Source: Nocardioides sp. IC4_145
GTDB taxonomy: Bacteria > Actinomycetota > Actinomycetes > Propionibacteriales > Nocardioidaceae
Length of the DNA stretch: 64,000 nt
Assembly (NCBI RefSeq): GCF_011250565.1
Contig: NZ_JAANMS010000003.1
Coordinates: 1 to 64,000 of the forward strand
Reading direction: 5' to 3'
The translations under genes and the position numbers were made by a program. Below, piece by piece: positions 2,314 to 12,320 of the stretch. The notes beneath the pieces were generated by a model. It ran no database searches. It worked only from the letters and a program-made list of their open reading frames with translations, and had not been told where the DNA came from. Every line of letters starts with the position of its first letter. Positions within the stretch are counted from its first letter, which is position 1.

Positions 2314-2766
2314 GTGGACGACGCGACCTGGGCCGCCCTCGCACTCACCCTGACCGTGCTCGGGGCGGTGTGGACGTGGCACGCGTTCCGCAAGCGCGGC
2401 GTGGCGTCCGGCCTGCGCGGTGCGGGGCTCACCCTGCTGCCGGCGGCGGCGTACCTCACCGACACGCTGCGGATGTTCACCCGCATCGGAACCGCGGTCG
2501 GCGACTGGGTCACCGGCCTGGTGCTCAGCCCGTCGGTGTGGGTCGGGATCGTCCTGGCGGGCGTCGCCGTCGTGCTGCTGGTGGTCTCGGGCCTCGTGCG
2601 CGACCGCGAGCGGGCCCGTGCGGTCGGCGGCGCAGCGACCGCCGCGCCCGACAAGGCGGTACGCCGTGGCAAGGGGAAGGGCGAGCCGGCGATCGGCAGC
2701 GCCCAGGGCGGGGACGACGAGCTCGCCGACATCGAGGCGCTGCTGCGCAAGCGCGGCATCTCCTGA
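2314..2766 (+). CDS. small conserved membrane protein of unknown function
   Basis: The 150-residue protein has three hydrophobic segments, at about residues 5-22, 33-52 and 73-95, followed by a charged tail ending in DELADIEALLRKRGIS. I recall similar short C-termini in actinobacterial membrane proteins of unknown function, but cannot name a role. The GTG start was chosen because it lies 6 nt after CAGGCT (2302-2307), a leaderless-type -10 box like those before neighbouring genes. The reading frame is open further upstream inside ssuD, but that part is a shadow. It sits between ssuD and the deaminase gene, with no evident functional link to either. Confidence 0.7.
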   Translation: MDDATWAALALTLTVLGAVWTWHAFRKRGVASGLRGAGLTLLPAAAYLTDTLRMFTRIGTAVGDWVTGLVLSPSVWVGIVLAGVAVVLLVVSGLVRDRERARAVGGAATAAPDKAVRRGKGKGEPAIGSAQGGDDELADIEALLRKRGIS

Positions 2767-2809
2767 GCATCTCCTGACCCGGCCGCCCCGAGTCTCCTAG
2801 AGTCCTGGG

Positions 2810-4030
2810 GTGACCCACCTCGACGACGTCGCCCGCAACCGGCTCTGGGCCCGGCTGTCGGCCGCCGCCGCAGCCGCTCCGGGCGACCTGCCCACCCCGG
2901 TCGCCGTGGTCGACCTCGACGCCTTCGACGCCAACGCCGCCGACCTGGTGCGGCGCGCGGCCGGGAAGCCCGTGCGGGTGGCGTCGAAGTCGATCCGCGT
3001 CCCGGCGCTGCTGAGGCGCGCGCTGGCCACCCCCGGGTTCGCCGGCGTCCTCGGCTACACGCTGCGCGAGGCGCTCTGGCTGGAGGAGCAGGGCGTCACC
3101 GACGACGTGCTCGTGGCCTACCCGACGGTCGACCGGGCCGCGCTGGCGCGGCTCGTCGCCTCACCGTCGGCGGCCGCGCGCGTCACGATCATGGTCGACG
3201 ACGTCGCCCACCTCGACGTGGTCGACTCCGTCCGTTCGTCCTCGGCCGTGCCGGTGCGGGTCGCGCTGGAGGTCGACGCCGGCCTGCGGGTCCGCGGCCA
3301 GCACGTCGGACCCAAGCGCAGTCCGCTGCACGAGGCCGACCGGGTCGTGCGGCTGGCGCGCGAGGTGCTCGAGCGGCCGGGCTTCCGGCTCGTCGGCGTG
3401 ATGACCTACGAGGGCCAGGTCGCCGGCGTCCCCGACGCGGTGCCCACGCAGCGCGCCCGCTCCGCGGTCGTCCGCGGCCTCAAGACGGCGTCGCTGACCC
3501 AGCTGTTGGAGCGGCGTCGGGCGGTCGCGGACGCGCTGCGCCCCCTGGTCGACCTCGAGCTGTGGAACGGCGGCGGGTCGGGGTCGATCGAGACGACCGT
3601 CGCCGACCCCGTCGTCACCGAGGTCGCCGCCGGGTCGGGACTGCTGGTGCCGACGCTGTTCGACCACTACCGATCGTTCGACCCCCGCCCGGCCGCGTTC
3701 TTCGGCGTGCCCGTGGTCCGGCGGCCCTCCGCCGACATCGCGACCGTCCACGGCGGCGGGTTCGTCGCCTCGGGTGCGGCCGGCGCCGACCGGCTCCCCA
3801 CGCCGTGGGCGCCCGCCGGCCTCCGGTTGACCGGGCTCGAGGGCGCGGGCGAGGTGCAGACGCCGCTCACCGGCCCCGTCGCCGGACGCCTCGCGATCGG
3901 CGACCTGGTGTGGTTCCGGCACGCGAAGTCCGGCGAGCTCTTCGAGCACACCGACCGCGTGCACCTGCTCCGCGGCGAACGGTTCGTCGAGGAGGTCCCG
4001 ACCTACCGTGGGCACGGCCTCGTCTCCTGA
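2810..4030 (+). CDS. PLP-dependent amino acid deaminase/aldolase, alanine racemase-like barrel
   Basis: A 406-aa fold-type III PLP enzyme related to D-threonine aldolase and D-serine dehydratase-like proteins. The N-terminal strand PVAVVDLDAFDAN leads to RVASKSIRVP, where Lys60 is the likely PLP Schiff-base lysine. Later come LVGVMTYEGQVAG, LWNGGGSGSIE (phosphate-binding glycine-rich loop) and a C-terminal metal/PLP domain with TVHGGGFVASG. The substrate is not determinable from sequence. The GTG start is preceded by TAGAGT (2798-2803) at 6 nt, so it is probably leaderless. The downstream kinase gene overlaps its 3' end by 23 nt. Confidence 0.75.
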   Translation: MTHLDDVARNRLWARLSAAAAAAPGDLPTPVAVVDLDAFDANAADLVRRAAGKPVRVASKSIRVPALLRRALATPGFAGVLGYTLREALWLEEQGVTDDVLVAYPTVDRAALARLVASPSAAARVTIMVDDVAHLDVVDSVRSSSAVPVRVALEVDAGLRVRGQHVGPKRSPLHEADRVVRLAREVLERPGFRLVGVMTYEGQVAGVPDAVPTQRARSAVVRGLKTASLTQLLERRRAVADALRPLVDLELWNGGGSGSIETTVADPVVTEVAAGSGLLVPTLFDHYRSFDPRPAAFFGVPVVRRPSADIATVHGGGFVASGAAGADRLPTPWAPAGLRLTGLEGAGEVQTPLTGPVAGRLAIGDLVWFRHAKSGELFEHTDRVHLLRGERFVEEVPTYRGHGLVS

Positions 4031-4589
4031 CCCGGCCGCGGTCGCCCTCGATCTCGTCCGCTCCCGGCCGCCCACGCTCGGCTCCGGGCGGCTGGTCTGC
4101 GTCGACGGACCGGCCGGCTCGGGGAAGACCACGCTCGCCGGACGGATCGGCGCGCTGGCCGCCGCGCCCGTGCTGCACATGGACGACCTGTACGACGGCT
4201 GGGACGGCCTCCCCCGCGTCGGTGAGCAGCTCGACCGCCTGCTGCTGCCGCTGTCCCGCGGCGAGACCGGGACGTACCGGCGCTACGACTGGCACGCGGG
4301 GGCGTACGCCGAGACGGTCGCCGTGGCGCCCGCCCCGCTGCTCGTGCTCGAGGGCGTCGGCGCCGGCTTGGCGGCGTACTCCTCGCTGGTGGGGGTGCTC
4401 GTCTGGGTCGAGGCGCCGGCCGGCCTGCGGCTGGAGCGGGGCCTGGCCCGCGACGGCGCCGAGGCCGAGCCGCACTGGCGGCGCTGGACGGTCGCCGAGG
4501 CCGCGCACTTCGCCGCCGACCGCACGCCCGAGCGGGCCGACCTGCTCGTGGACGGGACCGGACAGCGTCCGCCCCTGCGCCTAGGGTGA
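4008..4589 (+). CDS. P-loop nucleoside/uridine-kinase-like ATPase
   Basis: A 193-aa cytoplasmic P-loop protein with Walker A GPAGSGKT (residues 34-41), a MDDLYDGWDG segment like the catalytic Asp region of uridine kinases, and a Walker B-like strand LLVLEGVGAG. It resembles the uridine-kinase-like ATPases of actinobacteria that lack an assigned substrate. The GTG start overlaps the preceding PLP-enzyme gene by 23 nt, so translational coupling is likely. A later start is unlikely because the P-loop strand LVCVDG needs the residues before it. Confidence 0.7.
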   Translation: MGTASSPDPAAVALDLVRSRPPTLGSGRLVCVDGPAGSGKTTLAGRIGALAAAPVLHMDDLYDGWDGLPRVGEQLDRLLLPLSRGETGTYRRYDWHAGAYAETVAVAPAPLLVLEGVGAGLAAYSSLVGVLVWVEAPAGLRLERGLARDGAEAEPHWRRWTVAEAAHFAADRTPERADLLVDGTGQRPPLRLG

Positions 4590-4593
4590 GCCG

Positions 4594-5511
4594 GTGCTAC
4601 CTCCGAGCGGCGAACAGTTCGAGATCGAGGGCGGCGGCTACCGCGCCGTCGTGACCGAGAGCGGTGCCGCGCTGCGGGCGCTGTCCTTCCGGGGGCGCGA
4701 CCTCGTCGACGGCTTCGGGGAGGACGAGATGTCCTCCGGCGGCCGTGGGCAGCTGCTGGTTCCGTGGCCGAACCGGGTCCGCGACGGGCAGTACACCTTC
4801 GAGGGTCGCGACCTCCAGCTCCCGCTGAGCGAGCCGTCGCGGCACAACTCCTCGCACGGGTTGGCCCGCTGGGTCGCGTGGAGCGTCGAGGAGCACACCG
4901 GGCACTCGGTGTCGCTGACCTACCGGCTGATGGCGCAGACCGGCTACCCGTGGACGCTGGACCTGCACGTCGCCTACGACCTCTCCGCGGACGGCCTCAC
5001 CGTCACCCAGACCGCGACGAACGACTCCGGCCGCCCGGCGCCGTACGCCTCGGGGGCGCACCCGTACCTCCGCGTCGGCGACGGCCCGGTCGACCGCTGG
5101 GAGCTCACGCTCCCCGCCGCCACCCGCCTGCTCGTCGACGACGAGCGGCTGCTGCCGGCGGGCCGGGAGGCGGTCGAGGGCACGCCGTACGACTTCCGCG
5201 TCGCCCGCCCCCTGCGCGACCTGGCGCTCAATCACTGCTTCACCGACCTCGAGCGCGACCCGGAGGGCAACACCACCGCGGTGCTGCGGGACCCCGCCAG
5301 CGGCGACGGCGTCACCCTCTGGGTCGACGGCCACCACCCCTGGCTGCTGCTCTACACCGCCGACGACGTCCCCGCGGCCGCCCGCCGCTCGCTCGCCGTC
5401 GAGCCCATGACCGCTCCCCCCGACGCCCTCCGCTCCGGCGAGGACCTCTTCACCCTCGCCCCCGACGAGACCGTCTCCGTCGTCTGGGGGATCCGCGCCC
5501 TCGAGGACTGA
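4594..5511 (+). CDS. aldose 1-epimerase family protein
   Basis: A 305-aa galactose-mutarotase-fold protein. The expected features are present: PWPNRVRDGQY near residue 57, a His in NSSHGLARW (His88), a second His in SGAHPYLR (His156) and a Glu in LAVEPMTAPP that corresponds to the catalytic base of the family. Such proteins interconvert sugar anomers or act on phosphosugars; the sugar is not known here. The GTG start is 6 nt downstream of TAGGGT (4582-4587), another leaderless-type arrangement. No sugar-catabolic genes lie next to it. A perfect hairpin follows its stop. Confidence 0.75.
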   Translation: MLPPSGEQFEIEGGGYRAVVTESGAALRALSFRGRDLVDGFGEDEMSSGGRGQLLVPWPNRVRDGQYTFEGRDLQLPLSEPSRHNSSHGLARWVAWSVEEHTGHSVSLTYRLMAQTGYPWTLDLHVAYDLSADGLTVTQTATNDSGRPAPYASGAHPYLRVGDGPVDRWELTLPAATRLLVDDERLLPAGREAVEGTPYDFRVARPLRDLALNHCFTDLERDPEGNTTAVLRDPASGDGVTLWVDGHHPWLLLYTADDVPAAARRSLAVEPMTAPPDALRSGEDLFTLAPDETVSVVWGIRALED

Positions 5512-5527
5512 CCCTGCCCGCTCAGTG

Positions 5528-5562
5528 GCCACTTCCGGTCCGGTAGGTCGACCGGAAGTGGC
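5528..5562. terminator. perfect 13-bp inverted repeat between convergent genes
   Basis: The arms GCCACTTCCGGTC (5528-5540) and GACCGGAAGTGGC (5550-5562) are exact complements around a 9-nt loop. They lie 17 bp after the epimerase stop and 72 bp beyond the 3' end of the convergent PH-domain gene, where a bidirectional terminator is expected. No U-tract follows, as is common in high-GC actinobacteria. It could equally be an intergenic repeat element. Confidence 0.5.
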
Positions 5563-5633
5563 GACTCGACTCGTCGTTTCCGTCGACTCGGCGGAGGACG
5601 GGGTGGGTGAAGCGCAGGAGCGCAGCGTGGGGG

Positions 5634-6098
5634 CTAGCGGGTGAGCTCGTCGGCCAGGCGGCGGACGTCGCGGACCGCCTGTCGGGAGCGCTCGCCGTCG
5701 GAGCCCTGGATGCCCATGGCGGCGACGGTGCGGCCGTCGGAGAGGTCGAGGGTGACCCAGGGGGCGCCGGGCGGGAGGTTGACCGAGATGACCTCGGCCC
5801 AGGCGAACTCCCGCTTGCGGTACCCGTTCACGACGGTCAGCCCGTCGCGGGTCGCGGTGACCCGCGACCGGGTGAGCGCGTGCAGCACGACGCCGCCGGC
5901 GATCACGAAGAAGAAGATCGTCCCGATCTGGAACGGGGTGAACTTCGCGCGCGTCTCGGCGCCGAGGGAGATCCAGGCCGTGGCGAGGATGACCAGCATC
6001 CCGATGCTCAGGACGGTCGCGACGATCCGGGGGCCGAGGGGACGCCAGGTCCGCGGCACGTCCAGGGGGCCGCGGCCGGCCTCAGAGCCGGCAGGCAT
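5634..6098 (-). CDS. PH-domain-like membrane protein downstream of hisG
   Basis: A 154-aa protein with two hydrophobic helices (about residues 24-45 and 55-73) followed by a bacterial PH-like domain: VTATRDGLTVVNGYRKREFAWAE, then VTLDLSDGRTVAAMG. The ATG start lies inside the 3' end of hisG (17-nt overlap), so it is the third gene of a hisE-hisG unit. Small PH-domain proteins at this place after hisG are common in actinobacteria; their role is unknown and no histidine-pathway activity is implied. Confidence 0.7.
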   Translation of the reverse strand: MPAGSEAGRGPLDVPRTWRPLGPRIVATVLSIGMLVILATAWISLGAETRAKFTPFQIGTIFFFVIAGGVVLHALTRSRVTATRDGLTVVNGYRKREFAWAEVISVNLPPGAPWVTLDLSDGRTVAAMGIQGSDGERSRQAVRDVRRLADELTR

Positions 6099-6933
6099 TG
6101 ATCTCGGTGAGCAGGATGCCGCGCGCGCCCAGCTCCCACAGCTCGTCCATCAACCGCTGCGCACCCTGGCTCGGGACCATCGCCCGCACCGCGACCCAGC
6201 CGTCCTTGTGGAGCGGGGAGACCGTGGGGCTCTCGATGCCGGGCGTCAGCGCGACCGCGGCGGAGACGTGCTGGCTCTCGATGTCGTAGTCCATCATCAC
6301 GTAGCTGCGGGCCACGAGGACGCCGTCGAGGCGCCGCTTGAACACCTCGAAGCCGGGTGGCGGGTCGCCGGTGGCGCGCTTGATGAGCACGGCCTCGGAG
6401 TCGAGGATGGTCTCGCCGAAGACCTCGAGCCCGGCCTGCCGCAGCGTGCTGCCGGTCTCCACCACGTCCGCGACGACGTCGGCGACGCCGAGCTGGATGC
6501 TCGTCTCGACCGCGCCGTCGAGCCGCACCACGGTGGCCTCGATGCCTCGCTCGGCGAGGAAGGCGCGGACGACCCCGACGTACGACGTCGCGATGCGCAG
6601 CCCCGCGAGCTGGGACAGGTCGGTGTAGCGCCCGGCGGGACCGGCGAACCGGAACCGGCTGCGGCCGAAGCCGAGCGGGCGGACCTCGTCGGCCTGCGCG
6701 CCGGAGTCGCGCAGGAGGTCGCGGCCGGTGATGCCGACGTCGAGCGTGCCCTCGCCGACGTACAGCGCGATGTCCCGCGGGCGCAGGTAGAAGAACTCGA
6801 CGCCGTTCTCGTCGTCGACGAGCGTCAGCTGCTTGCTGTCGTCGCGCTGCCGGTAGCCGGACTCGCGCAGGATCTCCGAGGCGGACGTGGAGAGCGACCC
6901 CTTGTTGGGGACGGCGACGCGGAGGAGGGACAT
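6082..6933 (-). CDS. hisG: ATP phosphoribosyltransferase, long form
   Basis: First enzyme of histidine biosynthesis, condensing ATP with PRPP. The 283-aa length is that of the long HisG form, which carries a C-terminal ACT-like domain for histidine feedback and does not need HisZ. Visible motifs are RVAVPNKGSLS at the N-terminus, GTLDVGITGRDLL, the PRPP loop DVVADVVETGSTLR, and the regulatory tail GIESPTVSPL and MDELWELGARGILLTEI. The ATG follows a GGAGGAG-rich stretch on the coding strand. hisE lies 16 nt upstream. Confidence 0.95.
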   Translation of the reverse strand: MSLLRVAVPNKGSLSTSASEILRESGYRQRDDSKQLTLVDDENGVEFFYLRPRDIALYVGEGTLDVGITGRDLLRDSGAQADEVRPLGFGRSRFRFAGPAGRYTDLSQLAGLRIATSYVGVVRAFLAERGIEATVVRLDGAVETSIQLGVADVVADVVETGSTLRQAGLEVFGETILDSEAVLIKRATGDPPPGFEVFKRRLDGVLVARSYVMMDYDIESQHVSAAVALTPGIESPTVSPLHKDGWVAVRAMVPSQGAQRLMDELWELGARGILLTEINACRL

Positions 6934-6949
6934 GGGGTCCTGTTCGGGT

Positions 6950-7213
6950 TCAGAGGTGGGCGTAGACGTCGTCGAGCTCGAGGCCGCTGGCGAGCATCAG
7001 GCACTGGGCGTGGTAGAGCAGCTGACTGATCTCCTCGGCCGCCCGGTCCTTGCCCTCGTGCTCGGCGGCCATCCAGGACTCGGCAGCCTCCTCGACCAGC
7101 TTCTTGCCGATGGCGTGGACGCCGGCGTCGAGCTGGGCCACCGTGCCCGAGCCCGCCGGACGCGTCCGGGCCTTCTCCTGCAGCTCGGCCCACAGCTCGT
7201 CGAACGTCTTCAC
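6950..7213 (-). CDS. hisE: phosphoribosyl-ATP pyrophosphatase
   Basis: Second step of histidine biosynthesis, removing pyrophosphate from phosphoribosyl-ATP. The 87-aa protein is a stand-alone HisE (not fused to HisI), an all-alpha MazG-like fold. The metal-binding acidic segments are [14 protein letters not shown] and [13 protein letters not shown]. It is the first gene of hisE-hisG-PH protein; its ATG is 98 bp from the divergent histidine kinase start, so both promoters share 7214-7311. Confidence 0.95.
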
Positions 7214-7298
7214 GGGTCACCAGCCTAGGTGACGGCGGTCCGTCGACGCCCCTCGGTGTCCCCCCGGGAGCGGCTCATGAGCCGCTCTGACCTGCTGA

Positions 7299-7311
7299 TA
7301 CCGTCCCGGGT
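7299..7311 (+). promoter_or_regulatory. leaderless-type -10 element of the histidine kinase operon
   Basis: TACCGT (7299-7304) lies 7 nt before the ATG at 7312. This fits the TANNNT box of actinobacterial leaderless genes, whose transcript begins at or beside the start codon. No Shine-Dalgarno sequence is seen. The element sits in the 98-bp gap divergent from hisE. Confidence 0.5.
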
Positions 7312-10251
7312 ATGGGCACATCGCTGTCGCTCGAGGCGCAGCGACGTCGCTTCCGCGTCGTGGTGCCCGCGGCGCTCTCCTTCATCACGCTCTACGCGAT
7401 CCTGCTCAGCCCCGCGCTGCCGGCGGACTTCCGGGAGTCCGCGAGCGGGCTCGGCCTGATGATCTCCGGCACGACGACCGGCGTGGCGCTGGCCCTGCGG
7501 GCGCGGTGGTCGACGGGCCAGCGGCGCCGCGCCTGGCAGTGGCTGACAGCCGCGGCGCTGGTCGCGGTCCTCGGCAACCTGTGGACCGCGTTCGTGGGCT
7601 ACGACCCCGTGACCGAGCCCAGTGCGGTCAGCGACCTGAGCGTCTCGACGGCGCTGGTGCTCTCGATCGTCGGCGTGCTGTCGTTCCCGACCGTGCGCCG
7701 CCGCGGCCGCGACCTGGTGGTCCTGGCGCTCGACGGCGTCGTCGGTGGCGCCGCGGTGCTCATCGTCGCCTCGGTGCTGGTCTACGACGAGCTGCTCCAG
7801 TCGGTGGGCGAGCTGTGGGGGCCGCAGTTCTTCAGCCTGCTCATCCCGTTCCTCGACGTCGCCCTGGTCACCTTCGGCTTCTTCCTCGTCCTGCGCAGCC
7901 GGGGCGAGGGCCGTCCCGCCCTGGCCCTGGTCGCCTTCGGCTTCATGCTGTACGCGATCGCCGACCTGGCCTTCGCACTGCGGGTGAGCCAGGGCACCTT
8001 CGTCTGGGGCGACCTGACCGACCTGGGCTGGATCGCGGGCTACGTGCTCATCGGTGTCGCGGCGTGGTACCCGGCCCGCCCGGGCGCCGAGGACGTCGAA
8101 GAGAGCCGTGCCGTGGCCGACGCCCGGGACACGATCCTGGTGTTCTCCACCGTGGGCGTGGCCGTCGCGGTGCAGACCGTGCTGAACCCGGGCACCGAGC
8201 TGCAGCGCGCCCAGGTGGTGCTGTGGCTGGCGCTCGGCCTCGCCGCCGGCCTCCGACAGGTCCTGCTGACCCTCGACAACACCCAGCTGCGCCGGGGGCT
8301 GGAGCTCCGGGTCGAGGAGCAGACCGCCGACCTGCGGCGGATGGCGCGTCGTACCGAGACCCTGCTGACCTCCGTCGGCGACGGCATCTACGGCGTGGAC
8401 GCGGACGGGCTGATCACCTGGGTCAACCCGTCGGGCGCCCGCGCGCTCGGCCACCCGATCGAGGCGCTGGTGGGGCAACGGGCCCACGACCTCTTCCACG
8501 CCCCCGGTGTCGACGGCGCCGCCTTCCCGTACGACGGGTGCTACATCGCCGAGGCCATCGCCTCGGGAACGGTGACCAGCGCCGAGGAGGACGTCTACGT
8601 GCGCGCCGACGGCAGCACGTTCCCGGTCGAGATCACGGCCAGCCCGCTGGTGGACGACGACGTGGTCACCGGCGCGGTGGTGGTGTTCCGCGACGTCACG
8701 CAGCGTCGTGAGGTCGACCGGATGAAGAACGAGTTCCTCTCGGTCGTCAGCCACGAGCTGCGCACGCCACTCACCTCGATCCGCGGCTCGCTCGGCCTCC
8801 TGGCGGGCGGTCAGCTGGGCGAGCTGAGCCCGCGCGCGACCTCGATGGCGCGGATCGCCCTGGAGAGCAGCGAGCGGCTGACCCGGCTGATCAACGACAT
8901 CCTCGACCTCGAGCGGATCGAGTCCGGGACCCGCCCGATGGAGCTGGCCCCGACCGACCCCCGGACGCTGGTCGAGGCGGCCACCGCCGGGATGGACGCG
9001 ATGGCGCGGGGCGCCGACGTCCGGCTCGAGATCGGCGAGACGTCCGGGCAGGTGCTCGCCGACGCCGACCGCGTCGTGCAGACGCTGACGAACCTGCTCA
9101 ACAACGCGATCAAGTTCTCCGCCGCCGGTGGCCGGGTCGTCGTGGACGCCACCCTCCAGCCCAGTGGCAGCGCCGTGCTGTTCCGCGTGCGCGACGAGGG
9201 CCGCGGCATCCCCGCGGACCAGATCGCCACGATCTTCAACCGCTTCCACCAGGTCGACTCCTCCGACGCCCGGCAGAAGGGCGGCACCGGCCTCGGCCTC
9301 GCCATCAGCCGCGGCATCATCGAGCGGCACGGGGGGCGGATCTGGGCGGAGAGCCTGCCGGGTGAGGGGACGACCGTCCAGTTCACCCTTCCGGTGGCGC
9401 ACCGGGCCCGCCCGGTCGGGACGGACGCCCCCGTGGACGCCCCCGCGATCCTCGTCTGCGACGACGAGCCCGAGGTGGTCGGGACGCTGTCGAGCATGCT
9501 CGTCCGGCACGGCTACCGGCCCATCGGGGTCGGCGACGGCGACGAGGCGATCGCCCGCGCGACGGCCGAGCGGCCCGCCGCCGTCCTGCTCGACCTGCGC
9601 ATGCCCGGCACCTCGGGCGCCGAGGTCGTTGCCCAGCTGCGCAGCGGCGAACGCACCCGCGCGATCCCGGTGGTCGTCGTGTCCGGGCTCGGGCCGGAGA
9701 CGGCACCGGAGCTGGACCGGCAGACCGAGGGCTGGCTGGTGAAGCCGGTCACCGAGGAGCAGCTGGTCCAGGCCGTCGACGTCGCCCTCGCCGGTCGGAT
9801 GCGCGAGAGCGTGGTGCTGCTGGTCGAGGACGACGAGGACCTCGCGGAGGTGATCATCGCCCTGCTCCGCAGCCACGGGCTGCGCGTCGACCACGCTTCG
9901 ACCGCGGCGGCGGCGATCGCGGCCGGGCGGAGCGTGCGGCCCCACGTGCTCGTCCTCGACCTGCACCTGCCCGACGAGGACGGATCCGCCGTCGTGGCGG
10001 CGTTCCAGCAGGACCCGGCGCTCGCGGCGACCCCGCTGGTCGTCTACAGCGCCGCCGACGTCGAGGTCGACCGGCGGGCCGCCCTCGAGCTCGGGCCGAC
10101 CGTCTTCCTCACCAAGGGACGCAGCGGGCCCGAGGCGCTCGAGGATCGCGTGCTCGGCCTGCTCGACGCCGTCACCGGGCGCCCGGCCGCGTCCTCCGCC
10201 GAACTCTCTGCTCGCCCGTCCGTCACCACCACCTCCCAGGAGGAATCTTGA
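7312..10251 (+). CDS. membrane hybrid histidine kinase with PAS and two receiver domains
   Basis: A 979-aa sensor kinase. Residues about 15-315 are a multi-helix membrane sensor (eight to nine hydrophobic segments) of no family I can name. A short coiled linker leads to a PAS domain (about 345-465, with VNPSGARALGHP), a HisKA domain with phospho-acceptor His481 in SVVSHELRTPL, and an HATPase domain (about 570-695; NLLNNAIKFS, RDEGRGIP, GGTGLGLAIS). Two receiver domains follow: Asp761 in LLDLRMPG with Lys811, and Asp883 in VLDLHLPD with Lys935. There is no HPt domain. It heads an overlapping operon with an arginine decarboxylase, a GNAT-like protein and a response regulator, so it probably senses a membrane or redox signal tied to that output. 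Confidence 0.9.
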   Translation: MGTSLSLEAQRRRFRVVVPAALSFITLYAILLSPALPADFRESASGLGLMISGTTTGVALALRARWSTGQRRRAWQWLTAAALVAVLGNLWTAFVGYDPVTEPSAVSDLSVSTALVLSIVGVLSFPTVRRRGRDLVVLALDGVVGGAAVLIVASVLVYDELLQSVGELWGPQFFSLLIPFLDVALVTFGFFLVLRSRGEGRPALALVAFGFMLYAIADLAFALRVSQGTFVWGDLTDLGWIAGYVLIGVAAWYPARPGAEDVEESRAVADARDTILVFSTVGVAVAVQTVLNPGTELQRAQVVLWLALGLAAGLRQVLLTLDNTQLRRGLELRVEEQTADLRRMARRTETLLTSVGDGIYGVDADGLITWVNPSGARALGHPIEALVGQRAHDLFHAPGVDGAAFPYDGCYIAEAIASGTVTSAEEDVYVRADGSTFPVEITASPLVDDDVVTGAVVVFRDVTQRREVDRMKNEFLSVVSHELRTPLTSIRGSLGLLAGGQLGELSPRATSMARIALESSERLTRLINDILDLERIESGTRPMELAPTDPRTLVEAATAGMDAMARGADVRLEIGETSGQVLADADRVVQTLTNLLNNAIKFSAAGGRVVVDATLQPSGSAVLFRVRDEGRGIPADQIATIFNRFHQVDSSDARQKGGTGLGLAISRGIIERHGGRIWAESLPGEGTTVQFTLPVAHRARPVGTDAPVDAPAILVCDDEPEVVGTLSSMLVRHGYRPIGVGDGDEAIARATAERPAAVLLDLRMPGTSGAEVVAQLRSGERTRAIPVVVVSGLGPETAPELDRQTEGWLVKPVTEEQLVQAVDVALAGRMRESVVLLVEDDEDLAEVIIALLRSHGLRVDHASTAAAAIAAGRSVRPHVLVLDLHLPDEDGSAVVAAFQQDPALAATPLVVYSAADVEVDRRAALELGPTVFLTKGRSGPEALEDRVLGLLDAVTGRPAASSAELSARPSVTTTSQEES

Positions 10252-10757
10252 CCACCCGCCTCGACATCACCGTCCGCACCGCCACCGGGGTCGGACGCAC
10301 GAAGCTGGCGGCGTACGACCACGCCCTGCTCAACGCCGGAGTCGGGAACCTCAACCTGATCAAGCTCTCCTCGGTGATCCCGCCGCACAGCACGGTCCGG
10401 GTGCTCGAGGACGGCGCCCGCGAGGTGCTCGCCGGTGGGCACGGCGACAAGCTCTACTGCGTGGAGTCGGCGGTCTTCGCCGAGCACAGCGGGGAGACGG
10501 TGTGGGCCGGGCTCGGCTGGACGCGGGACGACACGACCGGCGGGCTGTTCGTCGAGCACCACGGCGGCAGCGAGGAGTCGCTGCTGGAGCAGATCACCCT
10601 GAGCCTGCACGACATGGACGAGAACCGCGGCGGTGGCTACGGACCCGTCGAGTCGGCGACCGCGTCGGCCCACTGCACGGACCGGCCGGTCTGCGCGCTC
10701 GTGGTGGCGGCGTACGCCGTCGAGGACTGGAACCCGAAGGAGCAGCACCGTGGCTGA
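10248..10757 (+). CDS. pyruvoyl-dependent arginine decarboxylase
   Basis: A 169-aa proenzyme matching the PvlArgDC family (about 165 aa) that converts arginine to agmatine. It would self-cleave between Ser41 and Ser42 in LIKLSSVIPP, turning the second Ser into the pyruvoyl cofactor. The family segments GGHGDKLYC, AVFAEHSGETVWAGLGW and GLFVEHHGGSEESLLEQI are intact. It starts with TTG, fixed by a perfect AGGAGG (10238-10243) and the TTGA overlap with the kinase stop. Its 3' end overlaps the next gene by 8 nt. No agmatinase or polyamine gene is seen in the window. Histidine or another amino acid as substrate cannot be excluded. Confidence 0.85.
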   Translation: MTTRLDITVRTATGVGRTKLAAYDHALLNAGVGNLNLIKLSSVIPPHSTVRVLEDGAREVLAGGHGDKLYCVESAVFAEHSGETVWAGLGWTRDDTTGGLFVEHHGGSEESLLEQITLSLHDMDENRGGGYGPVESATASAHCTDRPVCALVVAAYAVEDWNPKEQHRG

Positions 10758-11325
10758 GGCGGTCGCCCCCACCCTCGACATCACCGTCGAGCGCGAGCTC
10801 GACGACGAGACGATCGCGGCGTACTGGGCGCTCTACCGCGAGACGTTCGCCGAGCTGGAGGTCCGCGCGATGGCGCGCCACCTGCTCCACGAGCACGAGT
10901 TCGTCGAGGAGATGAAGGACGCCCGGGTGATGAAGTACGTCGCCCGCGACGCCGCCGGCGAGGTCGTCGGTCTCTCCACGCTCACCCGCGACCTGGAGAC
11001 CGTGCCGTGGATCAGCCCCGGCTGGTGGGCGCACCACTACCCGGAGCACACCGCCCGGAACGCCGTCTACTACCTCGGTTTCACCTTGGTGCGCCACGAC
11101 CAGCGACAGACCAACGTCATGTGGTCCATGATCTCCACCATCGTGGAGATGCTCGTGGAGGAGCGGGCGGTCTGCGGGTACGACTACTGCAAGTTCAACA
11201 ACGAGGTGCTGAACCTCGGTCCCGGTACCGAGGCCCTGCTGCACCGGATCGCCGACGTGGAGGTGGACGCCGCGGACACGCAGACCTACTACCGAGCGCT
11301 CTTCGCCGGACCGCGGACGAGCTGA
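10750..11325 (+). CDS. GNAT-like acyltransferase-fold protein, unrecognised family
   Basis: A 191-aa protein that I cannot place with certainty. Its layout (alpha-rich N-terminus, a strand AAGEVVGLSTLTRDLETVP, and a Tyr/His-rich centre ARNAVYYLGFTLVRHDQRQ) suggests an N-acyltransferase-like fold, but the canonical acetyl-CoA loop Q/RxxGxG/A is not obvious. A cysteine/tyrosine cluster VCGYDYCKFNN is notable. The GTG start lies 8 nt inside the arginine decarboxylase gene, and the stop overlaps the next ATG (TGATG), so it is made together with the decarboxylase and a response regulator. Modification of agmatine or of a protein is a guess. Confidence 0.65.
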   Translation: MAEAVAPTLDITVERELDDETIAAYWALYRETFAELEVRAMARHLLHEHEFVEEMKDARVMKYVARDAAGEVVGLSTLTRDLETVPWISPGWWAHHYPEHTARNAVYYLGFTLVRHDQRQTNVMWSMISTIVEMLVEERAVCGYDYCKFNNEVLNLGPGTEALLHRIADVEVDAADTQTYYRALFAGPRTS

Positions 11326-11696
11326 TGCCGCGCGCCCTCGTCGTGGACGACGACGACTCGATCCGCGAGATCACCCAGCTCGCACTGGAGGTCGTCGCCG
11401 GCTGGGAGGTCGTCACCGCCGAGAGCGGGGCACAGGCCATCGACCTGGCCGCCGAGCACCGGCCCGACGTGGTCGTGCTCGACCTGATGATGCCCGGCAT
11501 GGACGGCCTCACCACCTTCCGGCACCTCCAGGCGCAGGAGTCGACCGCGGGCATCCCCGTCGTGCTGCTCACCGCCAAGGTCCAGGTCGGCGACCGCCAG
11601 CTCTGGGACGAGATGGCCGTCGCCGGGGTCATCTCCAAGCCCTTCGACCCCATGGCCCTCGCCGGCGAGATCTCCACGATGCTCGGCTGGACCTGA
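11325..11696 (+). CDS. single-domain response regulator (stand-alone receiver)
   Basis: The 123-aa CheY-like receiver has the acidic pocket VVDDDD, phospho-acceptor Asp53 in VVLDLMMPGMDG, the Thr of LLTAK and Lys in ISKPFDP. There is no DNA-binding or enzymatic output domain, so it must act by protein contact or phosphotransfer. Its ATG overlaps the stop of the GNAT-like gene by one base. It closes the operon headed by the hybrid kinase, the most likely phosphodonor, perhaps through an HPt protein encoded elsewhere. Confidence 0.9.
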   Translation: MPRALVVDDDDSIREITQLALEVVAGWEVVTAESGAQAIDLAAEHRPDVVVLDLMMPGMDGLTTFRHLQAQESTAGIPVVLLTAKVQVGDRQLWDEMAVAGVISKPFDPMALAGEISTMLGWT

Positions 11697-11840: not shown

Positions 11841-12320
11841 TCAGCGGCGGGTGATGCTGCGGAGGGTGCGGGCGGTGAGGAGGGCGGCGGACGTCGCCTC
11901 GTAGCCCTTGTCCTCCTTCGACCCGGGCAGGCCGGCGCGGTCGAGCGCCTGCTCGTCGGTGTCGCAGGTGAGCACGCCGAAGCCGACCGGGGTGCGGTGG
12001 TCGAGGGCGACGCGGGTCAGGCCGTCGGTGGCGGCGGAGCAGACGTACTCGAAGTGGGGCGTGCCGCCCCGCACCACGACGCCGAGGGCGACCACGGCGT
12101 CGTACCCCTCCTCGGCCAGCGCCGCGGCGACGACCGGCAGCTCGAACGTGCCCGGCACGCGGACGACGGCCGACTCCCCCACCTGGTGGTCGTCGAGCGC
12201 GCGCTCGGCACCGGCCAGGAGGCCGTCCATGACCTCGGTGTGCCAGCTGGCGGCGACGACGGCGACGCGCAGGTCGCTGCAGTCGACGGGCCGGAGGGTC
12301 GGGGCGCCGTGTCCGCTCAT
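11841..12320 (-). CDS. ribH: 6,7-dimethyl-8-ribityllumazine synthase
   Basis: Penultimate riboflavin-pathway enzyme, joining the RibA-derived pyrimidine with the RibB-derived butanone phosphate; it normally assembles into icosahedral or pentameric shells. The 159-aa protein shows [15 protein letters not shown] (substrate loop), [29 protein letters not shown] with the catalytic His region, and [21 protein letters not shown]. The ATG overlaps the ribBA stop (ATGA), making it the last gene of the riboflavin operon. Confidence 0.95.

Follow-up and report, generated by a model that had tools for sequence, protein, structure and literature searches.

In a 64,000-nucleotide stretch of the Nocardioides sp. 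IC4_145 genome (contig NZ_JAANMS010000003.1, positions 1 to 64,000; hereafter the window), four overlapping genes on the + strand at 7312-11696 encode a hybrid histidine kinase, a homologue of the pyruvoyl-dependent decarboxylase PvlArgDC (here ADC), a 191-aa protein with a GNAT fold and a lone receiver. We propose that these genes form a self-contained module of signal synthase and receptor in which, we infer, the two enzymes make an acyl-amine signal and the adjacent sensor is its receptor; we put the probability of this reading at about one half. What is reported below on gene content and synteny, on conservation and domain homology, and on decarboxylase exchange and gene fusion was observed directly. 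Elsewhere the same kind of pairing is built with other decarboxylases and other sensors, which suggests a bacterial signalling system that has not been described before. The genes and their principal parts are as follows.

7312-10251, +: hybrid sensor histidine kinase, 979 aa (from the open reading frame (ORF), Pfam, AlphaFold2 (AF2) and motif positions)
7312-8310, +: predicted multi-helix membrane sensor domain of the kinase (from hhalign and AF2)
10238-10243, +: AGGAGG, inside the 3' end of the kinase ORF, 4 nt ahead of the TTG start of ADC
10248-10757, +: pyruvoyl-dependent decarboxylase ADC (PvlArgDC family), 169 aa, TTG start, predicted self-cleavage between S41 and S42
10750-11325, +: putative N-acyltransferase with a GNAT fold, 191 aa, GTG start (from the AF2 fold)
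11325-11696, +: lone receiver, 123 aa, with D53 and without an output domain (from Pfam)

Successive ORFs overlap by 4, 8 and 1 nt. An earlier note, made from the sequence of the window, had described this gene set with the same overlaps and the TTG start behind AGGAGG, and the ORF coordinates confirm all of these features.

A GNAT family with interchangeable decarboxylases and sensors

To ask how widely these genes travel together, we drew genomes from Actinomycetota (58 near relatives, 394 class-wide and 396 phylum-wide) and added one pattern scan of genome contigs. Two ADC genomes were common to the 58-genome and 394-genome draws. Among the near relatives, the PvlArgDC family (PF01862) was found in 5 of 58 genomes, the window genome included, and all five had an adjoining GNAT gene and a transmembrane (TM) kinase of the same kind. 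Class-wide, 12 of 394 genomes had PF01862 and 19 had the GNAT family, and ADC and GNAT stood side by side in all 12 ADC genomes. Their order is reversed (GNAT-ADC) in G067 and G091, with adjacency kept. The earlier note had proposed a single module, an idea that would fail if the two enzyme genes lay beside unrelated genes in most relatives; the linkage across these relatives instead supports one conserved functional module. The phylum-wide draw gave GNAT in 17 genomes and PF01862 in 20. Two of these 20 (G000 and G164) carry the module. Of the remaining 18, 16 were retrieved, made up of 13 orthodox loci together with G716, G724 and G492; partial ADC matches in G506 and G767 were left out, and G492 fell below the cut-off and gave no ADC by the analysis-built model. 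At the 13 orthodox, higher-scoring PvlArgDC loci, neither such a GNAT nor the membrane domain was found in the stretches read, several of which end at contig ends; a GGDEF at L119 and a kinase core at L124 lie 2-4 kb away.

We then searched 44 GNAT loci (one genome contributing two) with models of ADC, GNAT, the membrane domain, pyridoxal phosphate (PLP) decarboxylase, kinase core, GGDEF, EAL and receiver. The counts leave out L015 (from the genome of L008) and the short loci L001-L005, L017-L045 and L063-L080, which lie in the same places as longer stretches; L093 and L094 end at contig ends, and the decarboxylase of L095 is in two pieces. A sensor or kinase gene adjoins GNAT, or is one gene off, in 43 of the 44 loci, linking a presumed synthase gene to a presumed receptor gene. 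Four arrangements were observed. Type A (16 loci) runs TM-kinase, ADC, GNAT along a single strand and includes an orthologue of the lone receiver. Type B (5 loci) has ADC and GNAT with either a TM-GGDEF gene (L011, L051 and L012) or a divergent TM-PAS-PAS-GGDEF-EAL gene (L054 and L055). Type C (12 loci) has GNAT convergent or divergent with a TM-GGDEF-EAL gene. In type D (10 loci, in distant relatives), GNAT is accompanied by a PLP decarboxylase of the ornithine/arginine/diaminopimelate type, and the pair faces a convergent gene for a seven-transmembrane (7TM) type histidine kinase. The type-D GNATs were recovered at E 1e-13 to 1e-27 by a profile built without them.

A pyruvoyl decarboxylase is thus present at 21 of the 44 loci and a PLP decarboxylase at 11 (10 confirmed by Pfam, L095 by the analysis-built model only), and at three loci (L092, L093 and L096) the PLP decarboxylase and GNAT form a single ORF. 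Because PLP enzymes replace the pyruvoyl ADC, the partner of the GNAT appears to be an amine-making enzyme rather than one particular fold. Because decarboxylase fold and sensor output both swap around one GNAT family, a synthase-sensor pair is likelier than a maturation factor or a regulated pathway. In a tree of the GNATs, L062, which has a PLP decarboxylase, falls within a clade lacking a decarboxylase, apart from type D; the tree has several long branches and unresolved parts, and for this reason we claim no direction for the decarboxylase exchange. We give almost no weight to the idea that the genes are neighbours through inheritance or co-transfer, with no functional coupling: the distribution within the genus is patchy and involves at least two chromosomal sites, as such a history would predict, but the adjacency spans families and persists through rearranged gene orders, non-homologous replacement and fusion.

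The membrane domain of the kinase

The kinase contains PAS, HisKA and HATPase_c domains and two Response_reg stretches by Pfam. Its layout is a multi-helix region (residues 1-333), PAS (about 348-464), H480 in HisKA, HATPase_c (584-696), receiver 1 with D761 and receiver 2 with D883, the phospho-residues here and in the lone receiver being assigned by motif position. The HisKA histidine, the HATPase and the receiver aspartates of a hybrid kinase are therefore all present. The label of hybrid histidine kinase given in the earlier note was right for the kinase and receivers and omitted the N-terminal multi-helix domain of about 330 residues, which proves the most telling part of the operon.

These N-terminal residues are homologous to the N-termini of the GGDEF and GGDEF-EAL proteins encoded next to GNAT genes (hhalign 98.1%, P 7e-14, 299 columns), a relationship detected by profile comparison, whereas single-sequence phmmer gave no link. 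D108, D141 and D182 are common to all 15 aligned members. Pfam returned one weak match among the 15 and none for the window's own row, so the domain seems to belong to no curated family among the models scanned. The AF2 model has ten helices, with a predicted local distance difference test (pLDDT) score of 79.3. Fold searches gave weak rhodopsin- or G-protein-coupled-receptor-like matches (best Foldseek E 0.04; best Z 9.4, under the tool's trust level for helical bundles), and the resemblance of the predicted helix arrangement to 7TM receptors is a weak hint only.

The domain is rare, with 1-9 matches per genome across 22 GNAT genomes, and in 21 of these genomes the GNAT's neighbour scores best. 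In seven genomes (G018, G036, G203, G434, G441, G164 and G304) that neighbour is the sole match. This ranking is partly by construction, because the profile was built partly from GNAT neighbours; the low counts are unaffected. The membrane region of type-D kinases is likewise infrequent, with 0-4 matches per genome in 10 genomes and the GNAT neighbour as best match in 8; in G706 the neighbour is a weaker match, and in G697 none was found. The membrane region of the type-D kinase at L085 matches Pfam HisKA_7TM.

The putative acyltransferase

The 191-aa protein had no match in Pfam, NCBIfam or PDB sequences. Its AF2 model, built from 28 sequences, shows a GNAT fold (pLDDT 91.5; best Z 14.4, root-mean-square deviation 2.6, 144 aligned), so that the structure prediction called for in the earlier note bears out its description of the protein as GNAT-like. 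Nearly all of the fold matches listed are named acetyltransferases, with generic GNATs and polyamine acetyltransferases among many. Across the 44 members, Y29, P98 and D145 are identical throughout, Q178 is kept in 42, Y108 and F51 in 41, and D57 and Y180 in 40. Against Pfam, 8 of the 28 aligned members matched Acetyltransf_1 weakly (best E 0.0013), with scattered matches to other families, and NCBIfam gave one weak match. The family had no match on the plasmids searched. For comparison of the acetyl-coenzyme A (CoA) loop we used Q/RxxGxG/A, which we take to be the GNAT motif; several type C and D members are near-canonical there. An acylated decarboxylation product made by this protein, one of the outcomes envisaged in the earlier note, is supported as the best chemistry for a putative acyltransferase in this setting.

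PanZ, which presumably has a GNAT fold as well, raises the possibility that the module GNAT is a maturation factor or inhibitor of the pyruvoyl decarboxylase, tying self-cleavage to acyl-CoA status so that the module senses metabolism. The pyruvoyl enzyme PanD is both activated and inhibited by PanZ in a CoA-dependent manner (PMC4410942), and the window likewise combines a pyruvoyl decarboxylase with a potential CoA-dependent partner. The CoA loop is also degenerate in most Nocardioides GNATs. However, the module GNAT family pairs with PLP decarboxylases too, accompanying or fused to enzymes that need no self-cleavage at 11 of 44 loci, and stands at 12 of 44 without a decarboxylase match nearby. 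Family-wide, then, the partner is not always a pyruvoyl zymogen, although in the window itself the GNAT does sit beside a pyruvoyl enzyme. We consider this explanation improbable. PanZ does not figure among the fold matches listed, which counts neither for nor against it.

The decarboxylase and its probable product

The assignment of the second gene to the PvlArgDC family in the earlier note holds: ADC scored 84.7 bits on PF01862 (cut-off 22.7) with its key residues intact, and phmmer matched it to PDB entries 1n2m (E 2e-10) and 2qqd (E 1e-9), whose aligned Asp, Asn and Glu it retains. D24, N36, S42 and E103, to which we assign catalytic or self-cleavage roles by assumption, are kept in 21/21 module ADCs and 13/13 orthodox enzymes; S41 is kept in 21/21 module ADCs, and the Ser-Ser self-cleavage site is thus present. 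ADC falls below the NCBIfam arginine equivalog cut-off (TIGR00286, 57.8 bits against 106.95), and the residue right after E103 is a histidine (residue 104, window 10557-10559) in 21/21 module ADCs compared with 1/13 orthodox enzymes. This His104 is a candidate marker of altered substrate. Arginine is the likely substrate and agmatine the likely product, and a substrate other than arginine is left possible by the histidine and the missed cut-off.

The window genome gave no match to the agmatine deiminase (PAD_porph, PF04371) or arginase/agmatinase (PF00491) families, and agmatine would therefore have neither exit there. This is no general rule: PF00491 is absent in 9 of 16 module genomes, the window's included.

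The lone receiver and the direction of signalling

The lone receiver scored 88.8 bits on Response_reg (Pfam). Its orthologue is present in all 16 type-A loci, after GNAT in 14 and divergent ahead of the kinase in 2 (L014 and L053). The adjacency to the trio would suit a receiver that controls the decarboxylase or acyltransferase by binding to it, which the earlier note had offered as one possibility. In types B, C and D (27 of the 44 loci), however, GNAT and sensor stay together although orthologues of the lone receiver are not regularly found next to them (at L061 an OmpR-type regulator is encoded in the vicinity), which makes direct control by the receiver very improbable as the core mechanism. 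The earlier note had also pointed out that hybrid kinases with two receivers usually need an HPt partner. Five type-A kinases (L009, L010, L013, L014 and L047; 710-729 aa) lack a Pfam receiver domain and retain the lone receiver; because receiver-less kinases coexist with it, an HPt partner seems unnecessary and direct transfer from kinase to receiver plausible.

In the earlier note, agmatine was the output of signalling. A version of this idea is that the sensor controls the enzymes, with kinase and receiver, or cyclic di-GMP (c-di-GMP), tuning agmatine or acyl-agmatine output for stress, biofilm or envelope purposes. The same-strand order kinase-ADC-GNAT with short gaps in the 16 type-A loci (gaps computed from the start codon closest to the upstream stop) would fit such control, and the available text of PMC10267138 reports that acetylation of a diamine by Dpa changes motility and biofilm in Acinetobacter. 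We nevertheless find it unlikely: the window module has no DNA-binding output domain, and the constant partner of the GNAT in types A-C is a membrane input domain, not an output. Because unrelated decarboxylases and sensor outputs exchange around a constant GNAT, the amine fits better as what the sensor reads, which reverses the direction first proposed.

Proposed mechanism

In the synthase-receptor reading, the pyruvoyl enzyme would decarboxylate a basic amino acid, most likely arginine to agmatine, and the GNAT-fold enzyme would then acylate the resulting amine. In the co-encoded kinase, the multi-helix membrane domain would detect this N-acyl-amine, and the kinase would signal through PAS-HisKA-HATPase to its own receivers and to the lone receiver, the latter presumably acting through protein contact. 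In relatives that carry the membrane domain on GGDEF or GGDEF-EAL proteins, c-di-GMP would be the output in place of phosphotransfer.

Several observations weigh against this reading. The membrane domain is also found away from any GNAT, and the membrane region of type-D kinases is not detectably related to the window-type domain (hhalign 2%). Most Nocardioides and type-A GNATs, that of the window included, have few glycines in the acetyl-CoA loop. The ADC score on TIGR00286 means that arginine is not assured, and an arginase-family gene is present in 7 of the 16 module genomes. No decarboxylase match lies near the 12 type-C loci (L056-L061, L081-L084, L088 and L089), and no sensor match lies near the PLP decarboxylase and GNAT of L062. 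Finally, linkage through convergent or divergent neighbours, as in types C and D and some of type B, carries less weight than an operon does.

Chromosomal site and further loci

The operon lies between two genes on the opposite strand.

6950-7213, -: hisE, left border of the insertion
11841-12320, -: ribH, right border of the insertion

We compared this interval in 16 other genomes drawn from the genus, of which 15 had a readable locus (G014 gave none), reading about 1.2 kb. In 11 of the 15, ribH lies within about 620 bp past hisE and the module is absent, in agreement with the insertion that the earlier note had described. In the remaining 4, ribH lies outside the stretch read; one of these genomes, G013, has the module elsewhere.

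The theme is repeated with a different acyltransferase in G716, in which a module-type ADC is followed by a FeeM-like GNAT, with a divergent sensor gene (L115).

2747-6259, -: TM-PAS-PAS-GGDEF-EAL protein
7060-7542, +: PvlArgDC
7514-8338, +: FeeM-like acyltransferase

The G716 acyltransferase scored 27.5 bits on Acetyltransf_1 (cut-off 20.7) and 26.8 on FeeM, just under the cut-off of 27, and is weakly similar to the module GNAT profile (63%). It holds the acyltransferase place beside ADC and a TM sensor, as an N-acyl amino acid synthase of the FeeM kind might, whereas the window GNAT has no FeeM match. By analogy with the FeeM name, this suggests longer acyl groups in G716.

Two further arrangements were observed. 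At L012 (Antrihabitans), a methyltransferase gene (7654-8553, +; best Pfam PrmA) lies between the GNAT and TM-GGDEF genes. In G724 (L116), a pyruvoyl histidine decarboxylase (HDC, 127.8 bits) gene, preceded by that of a 250-aa protein, is convergent with a histidine kinase gene, whose upstream region is partly in another frame, a possible frameshift.

6702-7673, -: HDC
7739-8491, -: 250-aa protein
4970-6664, +: histidine kinase

This locus is possibly a histamine-based version of the theme. It was not counted as a second independent repeat: the 250-aa protein resembles a GNAT by visual inspection only, has no Pfam match and reached 0.1% in hhalign against the GNAT profile.

Relation to known systems

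Signalling by diffusible signal factor (DSF) is, by analogy, the closest functional parallel. The available text of PMC4698668 describes DSF-type signals made by RpfF and received by either the hybrid sensor kinase RpfC or the PAS-GGDEF-EAL protein RpfR; here, similarly, the partner of one GNAT family is at some loci a TM hybrid kinase and at others a TM-GGDEF(-EAL) protein. RpfF, however, belongs to the enoyl-CoA hydratase type of enzymes and makes fatty-acid signals, whereas the module has a decarboxylase and a putative acyltransferase, and we claim no homology. In norspermidine sensing by NspS-MbaA, an amine controls a membrane GGDEF-EAL protein, but through a periplasmic binding protein, and the available text of PMC8079147 mentions no acyltransferase. 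In the open-access PMC literature, a scope that excludes most subscription papers and all preprints, we found no description of the module and, on the membrane domain, only unrelated matter. Such a system would be missed by routine annotation, because the putative synthase is weakly matched at best and the putative receptor domain is unmatched by the family models scanned. In kind, it would be a synthase-receptor signalling system whose novelty would lie in how the enzymes are paired, in the membrane domain and in the presumed signal.

It is possible, if somewhat doubtful, that N-acylated agmatine or a related amine represents a new class of cell-cell signal, read by a new membrane receptor domain across Actinomycetota, with interchangeable outputs and decarboxylases. 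If the proposal is correct, various Actinomycetota, Nocardioides and Nocardia species among them, would possess a dedicated acyl-amine signalling system, and polyamine chemistry would be tied to both two-component and c-di-GMP signalling.

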